NCBI RefSeq assembly: GCF_000337195.1
Contig: NZ_AOID01000045.1
Coordinates: 1-64,000 of the forward strand
Reading direction: 5' to 3'
DNA from: Natrinema versiforme JCM 10478
Lineage (GTDB): Archaea > Halobacteriota > Halobacteria > Halobacteriales > Natrialbaceae
Length of the DNA stretch: 64,000 bases
Made by a program: the position numbers and the translations under genes. The notes under the pieces are model-generated. The model was not told the DNA's origin and did not search any database. It was given only the letters and a program-made list of their open reading frames with translations. This document shows positions 1,434-5,176 of the stretch, one piece after another (position 1 is the first letter of the stretch; every line of letters begins with the position of its first letter).

Positions 1434-2291
1434 ATGATCGTCAGCGGATCCGCGTCGCAGGCTCTCGCCGCGGCGCTCGCACGCCATCTCGAGGAACCGC
1501 TCGCCGCCGTCGAGTACGACCGCTTTCCCGACGGCGAACTGCTCGCGGCCGTCCCCGGCGTCGCCGAGGCCGAGCCGGACCGAGCGGTGATCGTCGCCTC
1601 GACCGTCTCGAGCGACGCCCACCTCGAGGTGCTTCAGCTACAGGACGCCGTCCGCGAGGCCGGCGTCGAAGAGGTCGTCACCGTCCTGCCGTACATGGGC
1701 TACGGGCGACAGGACGACGCCTTCGAGCCGGGCCATCCGGTCTCCGCGAGAGCGGTCGCCCGCGCGATTTCGACCGGTTCGGACCGCGTGCTGACGGTCA
1801 ATCCCCACGAGGCGGCCGTCTGTGACTTCTTCGAGCCGACGGCGACCGCCGTCGACGCGGCCGGCCGACTCGCCGAGCCCCTGCCCGCGGACCTCACCGA
1901 TCCCGTCTTTCTCTCGCCCGATGCGGGGGCCGTCGACCTCGCCGAAACGGTTCGAGACACCTACGGTGCGGGCGATATCGACTACTTCGAAAAGACCCGC
2001 CACTCCGGCACCGAGGTCGAAATCTCGCCGAGCGACGTCGACGTGGCCGGCCGCGACGTCGTCGTCGTCGACGACATCATCGCGACGGGGTCGACGATGA
2101 GCGAGGCCGTCGCCGTCCTCGAGGATCGCGGCGTCGATCGGGTCTTCGTCACCTGCGTCCACCCGCTGCTCGCCCGCGACGCCGTCACGAAGCTCTCGCG
2201 GGCGGGTGTCGAGGCGATCTACGGCACCGACACCATCGAGCGCGGCGTCGAGACCGTCTCCGTCGCGCCGGTGCTCGCGGCACACCTGTAA
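1434..2291 (+). CDS. prs: Ribose-phosphate diphosphokinase (PRPP synthetase)
   Basis: Makes PRPP from ribose 5-phosphate and ATP for nucleotide, histidine and tryptophan synthesis. The protein has 285 residues, typical of the short archaeal form. Visible motifs are FPDGE near the N-terminus, YMGYGRQD (about residues 87-94, ATP side) and the PRPP-binding loop VDDIIATGST (about 212-221). The open frame continues upstream to 1329, but the ATG at 1434 starts exactly at the family's N-terminal MIVSGS motif, so I chose it. It follows the propeller and lipoprotein genes on the same strand but is probably transcribed separately. Confidence 0.96.
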   Translation: MIVSGSASQALAAALARHLEEPLAAVEYDRFPDGELLAAVPGVAEAEPDRAVIVASTVSSDAHLEVLQLQDAVREAGVEEVVTVLPYMGYGRQDDAFEPGHPVSARAVARAISTGSDRVLTVNPHEAAVCDFFEPTATAVDAAGRLAEPLPADLTDPVFLSPDAGAVDLAETVRDTYGAGDIDYFEKTRHSGTEVEISPSDVDVAGRDVVVVDDIIATGSTMSEAVAVLEDRGVDRVFVTCVHPLLARDAVTKLSRAGVEAIYGTDTIERGVETVSVAPVLAAHL

Positions 2292-2395
2292 CTAAACGAT
2301 TAAGTAGTATCCACCCAGTGGCCTAGTTGTTAGCGCGTGGCACGAGACCGACTCGGCCACACGAGCAGCCGCGGACAACGGACTACAGCAGTTAG

Positions 2396-2935
2396 ATGCA
2401 CGGAATCGTCCACAAGACCCTCAAGGAATACGTCGTCGAGCGGACCGACGACGGCACCTGGGACACGATCGTCGAGCAGTCCGGCCTCGAGCCGCAGCTA
2501 TACCTCCCCGTCTCGAACTACGACGACGAGGAAGTCGACGCCATCCTCGAGACGCTCTCGACGATGGCCACCCAAGACAGGCAGGCGATCGAGCGCGACT
2601 TCGGCAAGACGCTCGCCCCCGAACTGCTCTCGACGTTCAGCGCCCACATCCGGCGCGACTGGGACCTCCCCGAACTGCTCGCCGGTTTCGATGACGTCTA
2701 CGACAACATCGAGGCCGCCACGGAGAACACCGAACTCCCGGCGCTCTCCTGTACCCGCGAGGACGACCACGCGATCGTCACGTACGACACCCACCGGGAG
2801 CAGCGGTACTGCGGGCTCGCCCACGGCATCCTCGAGGGCACCGTCGCCGCGTTCGACGCGGACGCGCCCGTGACGAAAACCGCCTGCGTCGACGACGGTG
2901 CCGACGCCTGCCGGTTCCGCGTCGACCTCGAGTGA
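2396..2935 (+). CDS. H-NOX/V4R-fold sensor protein (heme NO-binding family) lacking the proximal histidine
   Basis: This 179-residue protein starts with MHGIVHKTL and has the size and order of an H-NOX (heme nitric oxide/oxygen binding) domain. The YxSxR signature appears as YDTHR (Y130, R134), followed by the usual GxxxG-type helix (LAHGILEG). By hand alignment to a bacterial H-NOX, the heme-ligating histidine position is Tyr102 (FDDVY). The C-terminus carries C139, C164 and C172 in a 'C...DGADACRFRV' pattern resembling the related V4R fold. No output domain is fused. It may bind heme differently, bind a metal, or bind another ligand. Confidence 0.75.
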   Translation: MHGIVHKTLKEYVVERTDDGTWDTIVEQSGLEPQLYLPVSNYDDEEVDAILETLSTMATQDRQAIERDFGKTLAPELLSTFSAHIRRDWDLPELLAGFDDVYDNIEAATENTELPALSCTREDDHAIVTYDTHREQRYCGLAHGILEGTVAAFDADAPVTKTACVDDGADACRFRVDLE

Positions 2936-3088: not shown

Positions 3089-5176
3089 TTACCGGCGACG
3101 AGCCAGCAGTGCGCTCAGCAACGCCGCCGCCACGGCGACCAGCGCGGTCGAGATACCGAAGCCGGGGACCTCCTCGAGCCCCGCTACCGTACCGCCACCG
3201 ACAGCTGCCGTCGTCGTCCGATCGTGGACCGCGATCTCGTACCGCCCGTCCTCGTCGAACCGGATCTCGGCGTCGACCGTCATCGCCTCGCCGGGCCGAA
3301 TCGCGACCGGTCGCTCGGCGACGACGCCGTCGACGGTCCGGAACGCGAGGACCGCCGCTCCCGGTCGATCATCGGCGGCTTCGATCGTCGCAGTCGCAGT
3401 CACCGATTCGCCGGCGTCGATGCCCTCGGGCGCGTGCTGCAGATCGGTGACGGCCACGCTCCCGGACGATCTGACGATGGCGGTGAGTCGCTCCGACCCG
3501 ACCCGAACCGTGTACTCGCCGGGTTCGGACGGCGTCCACGAGAGGGTATGGGTCGCCGCCGCTCCGGGCTCGAGGGTCCCCCGTCGGCTATCGACCACCC
3601 GGCCGCCCGCCTGGAGCGTCGCGTCGTAGGTTCCCGCCCGCTCGCCGGCGTTTGCGACCGTCGTCGGGATTGTCACGGACTCGCCGGCCGGGACCGCGAT
3701 GACGGTGCGGTCCTCGCTATCGGTGCGGCCGAGGGCCGACGCGTTCCAGCGGGGCCACTCCTGTCCCGCCACCGTGAGCGATTCGACCTCGATACCGTAC
3801 TCGAAGGCCGCGACCGACTGCCCGAACGCGGCCTCGTGGTGGCTTCGGTTCCACGTCTCCGGCGTCGCCTCGGTCCGCGTGTACCGCTCCGCGGCGGCGC
3901 GAACCTCCGCCCCGCCGGCGTCCTCGATCGCTTGCAGGAAGTCCGCCTCGGTCACCGTCTCTTCCTGCGCGTTCAGCGTCCGGAACACGTCCTCGAGCGT
4001 GCGGTCGCCGTCAGTGGCGAGCCGGAGCCGCCGGTCGATTTCGCCGGCGACGAGCGCCCCTTTCGCGTAGTCGGTCTCCGGGTCGTCCCACGTCGATCGA
4101 TCGGCGAGGACGCCATCGGCGTAGGGCGATCGCTCGCCCCGCTCGAGGAGGGTGCTGAACTCACCGAACTCGATCCGGCCGCTCTCGAGGGCGAGCAGGC
4201 CTGCGTAGTAGTCGGCCTGCCCTTCGACGACCCAGTCGATTTTGGGAGCGGTGTCGACCGCTGCGGTCGAAAAGCGCTGGCGGACGTGGACGTACTCGTG
4301 GACCCAGACCGGGTTCCGCTCGTCGAGCGTGGCGTTTTCGACGACCCACGCGTCCGACTGGCCGTACTGGATCCCCCGATTCGAGCCCCAGTCGACATCG
4401 CTCGGAACCGCGACCATGAACACCTCGTCGCTTCGCATGCCGACCTCGAGTCGCCCGCTCGCGTCCGCGAGGGCTGTGAGGATATCGTCGGGCGACTCCT
4501 CAAGCTCCGCGACTTCGGGGACTGCCAGCCGGAACGTCTCCCCGTCGACATCGCGTTCGTACTCCCGTACCGCTCCGAAAAAGGCGATGTCGCCGCCGGT
4601 CGCGCCCGGCCCGTCGACGGTCACCGTCTTCTCGATACCGACCGGCTCGGTCCGGTGCAACGAGATCTCGACGCCTGGGACCCCCACGACGCCCCACTCG
4701 CCGGTATCGACGAACGTGTATCCCGCACTCGAGTCGGTTCCGCGCTGTTCGCCGCCCCCGCGCTGATCCGCCGGCATCGCGTACTGGATCGTCGGTTCGG
4801 CGGTTTCCTCGTCCCACCGGAAGGTCCGCTCGCCCGTTCGCTCGAAGCCCGCGATGGACTCGACGGTCGCACCCCGCTCGAGTTTGATCTCGAACTGCGT
4901 GACGGGATCGGGGACGCGGAAGGTCATCTCCGTCCCGAACGTCTCGGGGTCGTCCGGCCGATGCCGGAGGACGGTCGTCCGGTGGAAGACATCGTCGGAG
5001 CCGGCGCTCGTCCCGACCGACGCGAGCGCCTGACTCGACTCGAGTTCGGACCCCTGGACGAACTCGGCAGTTGCCGAGGGCTCGACCGCACCCGCAGACT
5101 CGAGGGAGACAGCACCGGCCGGGGGACTGGCGACGAGCAAGATGACGAAGGCGAGAACGGCGACTCGAGAGTTCAC
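3089..5176 (-). CDS. Exported gluzincin-type metalloprotease with PGF-CTERM anchor
   Basis: The protein has 695 residues. A Sec signal (VAVLAFVILLVASPPAGA) leads to a beta-rich N-terminal region. A zinc-protease signature, HEYVH, lies at residues 293-297, followed about 20 residues later by EGQADYY, giving the third ligand Glu of an HExxH...E gluzincin. After this helical catalytic region come two CARDB/Ig-like beta domains (about 430-650). The tail is PGF, a hydrophobic segment and RRR, the PGF-CTERM sorting signal recognised by archaeosortase A, so the mature protein should be lipid-anchored on the cell surface. The protease family (M1/M61-like) is inferred from the motif only. The long antisense frame over this gene is a codon-bias shadow. 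Confidence 0.85.
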   Translation of the reverse strand: MNSRVAVLAFVILLVASPPAGAVSLESAGAVEPSATAEFVQGSELESSQALASVGTSAGSDDVFHRTTVLRHRPDDPETFGTEMTFRVPDPVTQFEIKLERGATVESIAGFERTGERTFRWDEETAEPTIQYAMPADQRGGGEQRGTDSSAGYTFVDTGEWGVVGVPGVEISLHRTEPVGIEKTVTVDGPGATGGDIAFFGAVREYERDVDGETFRLAVPEVAELEESPDDILTALADASGRLEVGMRSDEVFMVAVPSDVDWGSNRGIQYGQSDAWVVENATLDERNPVWVHEYVHVRQRFSTAAVDTAPKIDWVVEGQADYYAGLLALESGRIEFGEFSTLLERGERSPYADGVLADRSTWDDPETDYAKGALVAGEIDRRLRLATDGDRTLEDVFRTLNAQEETVTEADFLQAIEDAGGAEVRAAAERYTRTEATPETWNRSHHEAAFGQSVAAFEYGIEVESLTVAGQEWPRWNASALGRTDSEDRTVIAVPAGESVTIPTTVANAGERAGTYDATLQAGGRVVDSRRGTLEPGAAATHTLSWTPSEPGEYTVRVGSERLTAIVRSSGSVAVTDLQHAPEGIDAGESVTATATIEAADDRPGAAVLAFRTVDGVVAERPVAIRPGEAMTVDAEIRFDEDGRYEIAVHDRTTTAAVGGGTVAGLEEVPGFGISTALVAVAAALLSALLARRR

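Follow-up and report, generated by a model that had tools for sequence, protein, structure and literature searches.

The window analysed here, the whole stretch of 64,000 nucleotides from Natrinema versiforme JCM 10478, codes for a stand-alone protein of the H-NOX (HNOB) fold that lacks the proximal, heme-ligating histidine. The protein belongs to a clade that makes up 51 of the tree's 81 haloarchaeal rows and lost this residue once. Normal His-ligated heme sensing is very probably gone, and the protein most likely signals without it, through a putative zinc-thiolate site formed by C139, C164 and C172. The gene and the positions on which this reading is built are listed below with their support.

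2396..2935, + strand: H-NOX-fold (HNOB) gene without proximal His, 179 aa (PF07700 and structure model)
2411..2413, + strand: His6, clade-specific (48/51 rows; L, F or Y in 30/30 His-bearing paralogs)
2645..2647, + strand: His84 (47/51 rows; also in 19/30 His-bearing paralogs)
2669..2719, + strand: helix alpha-F, residues 92-108, bearing the proximal-ligand position (top of 162 sliding windows for conservation loss)
2699..2701, + strand: Tyr102 codon, at the proximal-His position (BLASTP and HMMER alignments, clade alignment)
2783..2797, + strand: Y130-D-T-H-R134, the YxSxR (heme propionate) motif (sequence and alignment)
2810..2812, + strand: Cys139, putative zinc ligand (aligns with Cys139 of Shewanella oneidensis H-NOX)
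2885..2887, + strand: Cys164, putative zinc ligand (aligns with S. oneidensis Cys164)
2909..2911, + strand: Cys172, putative zinc ligand (aligns with S. oneidensis Cys172)

The ORF starts with ATG and is a genuine, conserved H-NOX protein of Natrinema relatives. A Pfam profile search matched its product to PF07700 (HNOB) with an E value of 2.7e-24 and 86.4 bits (cut-off 25.5), and all 30 members of set A2 match the same profile at E ≤ 0.01. The closest named relatives in the named collection are Natrinema species, at 85-87% identity. The ORF is a maintained gene, since orthologs occur in 29/29 genomes of the genus, one of them (L031) with a shortened N-terminal half, and dN/dS between the window gene and 26 genus orthologs lies at 0.16-0.41, the mark of purifying selection. 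An AlphaFold2 model built from 30 sequences has a mean pLDDT of 84.5 and a pTM of 0.82, with residues 33-40 under 50. Foldseek and VIA-align placed this model on S. oneidensis H-NOX (4u9b, Z 21.1; 4u99_B, TM 0.87 and Z 21.0 over 176 residues, 2.2 Å, 22% identity), followed by Bet3/TRAPP chains at Z about 11; the predicted fold is that of H-NOX. The H-NOX-like character proposed in the initial annotation is thus well founded. Its further proposal of a bridge between H-NOX and V4R is not supported: of the two profiles it suggested comparing, PF07700 gave a clear match while V4R (PF02830) reached 23.4 bits over the C-terminal part, below its cut-off of 31. The His-bearing paralog P0002 of the same genome outscores the window protein for V4R (38.7 bits), and the kinship of HNOB, V4R and MetOD1 is already published in the part of PMC5847659 available. 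MetOD1 likewise stays under its cut-off (18 against 23.8) and covers the C-terminal part, including the Cys region. On the low V4R score and the fold match, a V4R hybrid was rejected.

The residue facing the ligand position was defined by two alignments. Tyr102 stands opposite the histidine of paralog P0002 (genome G000, contig C26) with no gap nearby (BLASTP), and opposite the proximal His of S. oneidensis H-NOX with a gap of one residue (HMMER), as the initial annotation had placed it by hand. HNOB proteins were gathered from an order sample (64 of 293 genomes with a match) and from the genus genomes and the named collection (29 loci). For archaeal outgroups a phylum sample was used (31 of 392 genomes with a match), from which nine loci were taken and four entered the tree. 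Two partial matches (L117, L118), the duplicate of the window locus (L002) and identical sequences were dropped before the 101-row alignment, and 18 loci were thinned out before the tree, which holds 86 rows (30 His-bearing haloarchaeal, 51 His-less and 5 outgroup). Position 102 is H in all 30 sister haloarchaeal paralogs and in none of the 51 His-less rows. The latter form one clade with a support of 100/93 (ultrafast bootstrap/SH-aLRT) in the careful tree, from which the S. oneidensis row was left out, and of 100/97 when L061 is removed (50 rows). The His-less groups persist after removal of the alpha-F columns (SH-aLRT 92 and 96), and the loss of His is a single change on the tree. For comparison, the proximal His is described as absolutely conserved among 598 H-NOX sequences in the accessible sections of PMC7108781.

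The residues that took the place of His are diverse. In the 50 His-less rows counted without L061, which carries F, position 102 is Y in 28, A in 7, T in 6, V in 5, S in 3 and R in 1. The unthinned genus set (n=29) has Y in 24, S in 3, and T and I once each, while the 13 deep rows outside Natrialbaceae (a label inferred for 38 rows from the names of named relatives) have 12 Y and 1 F. The Tyr state changed at least seven times within the clade. From these alignments Tyr looks like an early replacement of His that was later exchanged freely. Such free exchange disfavours a required heme-Tyr bond, and the variability of the position rules out Tyr102 as a conserved ligand.

Loss of constraint was centred on the helix that carries this position. 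Mean column entropy over alpha-F rises from 1.08 bits in His-bearing rows to 2.04 bits in His-less rows. The mean change is +0.97 for the 17 alpha-F columns against -0.04 for the 160 others (Mann-Whitney p 2.5e-5, a descriptive value because columns are non-independent and rows are related). The sliding window starting at residue 92 ranks first of 162 in the 50 rows, in 12 deep rows and in 23 Natrialbaceae rows from outside the genus; in the 15 genus rows the one starting at 91 does. Leu105 and Arg106, each found in 30/30 His-bearing rows, are relaxed in the His-less clade. Outside alpha-F there is little change or a tightening, with smaller rises at residues 85-91, in strand 2 and in the last strands. 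Conservation exceeds that of the paralogs in helix A, helix E and the 29-43 loop. Judged by these column statistics, constraint was lost in alpha-F alone. The initial annotation held that the helix following the motif was kept, which is correct for alpha-G, after YxTxR, and fails for alpha-F, which bears Tyr102. In known H-NOXs alpha-F is the helix that shifts upon NO binding (PMC8196705, in its available portion); because the loss of constraint centres there, the NO-shifting helix is the very part set free.

P115 and YxSxR, which in known H-NOXs serve the heme, are largely kept. Y130-D-T-H-R134 fits YxSxR with Thr for Ser, as had been read from the sequence at the outset; a role of this motif with the heme propionates is given in the part of PMC8196705 seen. 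In the 51 His-less rows P115 is retained in 48, Y130 in 50, S/T132 in 51 and R134 in 47, and the glycines G70 and G144, which probably correspond to the pair of hinge glycines described for known H-NOXs, in 51 and 50, respectively. Both P115 and R134 are present in all 38 Natrialbaceae rows. Among the 13 deep rows R134 is lost in four and P115 in three. The window protein combines YxSxR and P115, features of a heme-ligating H-NOX, with Tyr in the place of the proximal His. The retained motifs could leave room for heme held by another ligand, such as His6, or for a different pocket ligand.

The three cysteines C139, C164 and C172, present as initially annotated, were regarded there as a V4R-style pattern. 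They coincide instead, down to their numbers, with the zinc ligands Cys139, Cys164 and Cys172 of S. oneidensis H-NOX, whose fourth ligand is His161 (PMC7108781, as far as the text at hand goes), and carry no V4R novelty. The suggestion of zinc in the same annotation fares better, as this alignment makes a putative zinc site probable. All three cysteines are kept in 43 of the 50 His-less rows and in 29/29 genus members. The seven other rows arose by about four changes and keep the gene without at least one of the three cysteines, so the site is dispensable. In six of them (L051, L053, L085, L096, L107, L109) and in L102, which lost one Cys, the zinc cysteines disappeared mostly two or three together while YxSxR was kept. 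The His or Gln expected as fourth ligand at position 161 is not found: the residue is Lys in the window protein, K in 17 and E in 12 genus members (n=29), Lys or Arg in 26 of the 38 Natrialbaceae rows, and E in 29/30 His-bearing rows. A full copy of the known zinc site is unsupported because of this Lys. His143, one helix turn from C139 and present in 32/38 Natrialbaceae rows, is an attractive substitute for the ligand at 161, yet it is retained in some rows that lack C139 and C164, and it was set aside. The triad is missing in 6/23 rows without Tyr102 against 1/28 rows with it, a contrast for which an independent-pairs test has too few pairs, and a link between the two losses was likewise set aside.

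The genomic surroundings of the gene differ from those of its His-bearing relatives. Of 25 His-bearing loci, 20 contain a gene for an MCP (chemoreceptor), against 1 of 50 His-less loci, a contrast somewhat inflated by the fact that 14 of the 50 span 3.5 kb only; two of the loci were confirmed by Pfam. Five loci (L062, L064, L065, L067, L073) have a tandem HNOB pair in which both members carry the proximal His, each with an MCP gene, and L064 has in addition a CheA-like gene (Pfam). Upstream of the His-less gene the following features are found.

1434..2291, + strand: prs, ribose-phosphate pyrophosphokinase, upstream neighbour (Pfam; start judged by eye, ORF from 1329)
2300..2306, + strand: TTAAGTA, candidate archaeal TATA-like element (part of a block that is conserved when 27 Natrinema upstream regions are aligned)

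The gene prs precedes the His-less gene in 62 of 64 loci at a median gap of 104 bases (two gap values of -1 are artefacts of merged frames). Loci L048, L105 and L115 have no prs match; in the genomes of the last two, the same contig carries prs at a distance of about 9 and 13 kb. In L117 the His-less ortholog beside prs is seemingly split across two frames. Functional coupling to prs is not claimed, as ileS and other flanking genes are equally syntenic and these three loci lack a match; the adjacency may reflect inherited gene order only. Also syntenic with prs and ileS is a large protein encoded at 3089-5176 (- strand), with a CARDB domain (Pfam) and a HEYVH stretch recognized by eye, possibly a surface metallopeptidase. 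The TTAAGTA block is found about 85-100 bases before the start in most of the 27 genus members, which suggests a promoter of the gene's own. Over the whole clade a TATA-like signal was present in 9/51 rows (shuffles: mean 3.1, maximum 10), that is, without enrichment. The conserved genus block at 2290-2340 also holds, downstream of the TATA-like element, a CGTG-N-CACG-like inverted repeat that could be a regulator site.

The window protein shares its fold, YxSxR, the Pro and the hinge glycines with the H-NOXs of S. oneidensis (4u99/4u9b) and Vibrio cholerae, which belong to zinc-site groups 2/3. Unlike these, it has no proximal His and carries Lys (Glu in other genus members) in place of the fourth ligand His161, and no kinase gene adjoining the His-less gene was found in the parts of the loci examined. 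Paralog P0002, 29% identical, has the same Cys triad and YxSxR, and differs by its proximal His and its adjoining MCP gene. The zinc site of known H-NOXs can act as an input of its own in vitro: according to the portions of PMC7108781 and PMC12329717 available, Cys oxidation there activates the heme-free V. cholerae protein, and the Caulobacter H-NOX is activated by Cys oxidation and not by NO. The latter shares the three Cys ligands but still carries heme (PMC12329717, same portion). A precedent for an H-NOX domain that lost its ligand is the soluble guanylate cyclase (sGC) alpha subunit, which no longer binds heme and in human has no heme histidine; this domain is part of a eukaryotic heterodimer and an N-terminal extension fills its pocket (all from the excerpted text of PMC8196705). 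The window protein, in contrast, is archaeal and stand-alone, begins at helix A and keeps YxSxR.

The analysis establishes the H-NOX fold, the single loss of His, the relaxation of alpha-F, the kept cysteines, hinge glycines and YxSxR, and the changed neighbourhood. In the preferred explanation the heme-ligating His disappeared once, constraint on alpha-F was given up, and the gene became separated from that of the chemotaxis receptor. A dropped His and a freed alpha-F, alongside retained Cys, hinge glycines and distal helices, fit a protein that would rely on the second, zinc-thiolate input alone. Oxidation of the cysteines would rearrange the putative zinc site, the two subdomains would then rotate about the retained glycine hinge (G70/G144), and this rotation would alter how the distal helices meet a presumed partner. 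We infer zinc binding and redox signalling and no functional heme for the His-less clade; the window protein could be a naturally occurring redox switch that works without heme. We give the full redox mechanism an even chance. Counting against it, the nearly general presence of P115 and R134 would also fit continued binding of heme or of another ligand, and the Lys/Arg at 161 in most Natrialbaceae rows and the loss of Cys in 7/50 rows would weaken a zinc site.

The initial annotation's idea of heme bound through Tyr102 as axial ligand draws on Tyr in 12/13 deep rows and 24/29 genus members together with the largely kept YxSxR and P115; we consider it quite improbable, as 22 of 50 rows have A, T, V, S or R instead, the Tyr state changed repeatedly, alpha-F is relaxed, and P115 and R134 erode even in deep branches where Tyr persists. 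Alternatively, a different histidine could hold the heme, either His84 or the distal-side His6 of helix A, so that the ligand would swap sides. His6 is nearly invariant in the clade and replaced by L, F or Y in every paralog, and P115 and YxSxR are at hand, but His6 is placed by the position of helix A, and His84 also occurs in 19/30 paralogs with a normal His, which leaves this swap improbable. A bolder form has the ligand turned round, with the proximal His lost, His6, which arose on the same stretch of the tree, taking heme distally, and the zinc-thiolate site serving as second input. It has a slim chance; if true, the protein would sense through two inputs, redox and heme, in a way that sets it apart from known H-NOXs.

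A role in binding a hydrophobic ligand, V4R/TRAPP-like, with the pocket reused for another small molecule, or a purely structural role, is unlikely. It would explain why P115 and YxSxR outlived the His, and it agrees with the published kinship of V4R, HNOB and MetOD1 (PMC5847659, available part) and with the weak V4R and MetOD1 matches across the Cys region, yet the H-NOX Z of 21 stands well above the Bet3/TRAPP value and the V4R score falls short both of the cut-off and of that of the His-bearing paralog. That the gene is a decaying relic on its way to loss, as the seemingly split L117 ortholog and the Cys losses might indicate, is the least credible: it is present throughout the genus (with the shortened L031 copy), its dN/dS is low, and helix A, helix E and the 29-43 loop are more strictly conserved than in the paralogs.

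Heme-independent redox signalling by the zinc site is reported, in the literature found, in vitro only and for proteins capable of binding heme, and our search of the open-licence literature found no paper on an archaeal H-NOX or on a stand-alone H-NOX without proximal His. If the preferred reading is true, a natural His-less lineage that retains the cysteines lets the redox mode be tested apart from heme. The lineage would show that the two inputs of H-NOX proteins are separable in evolution, and archaeal proteins called "heme NO-binding" by profile may bind no heme.
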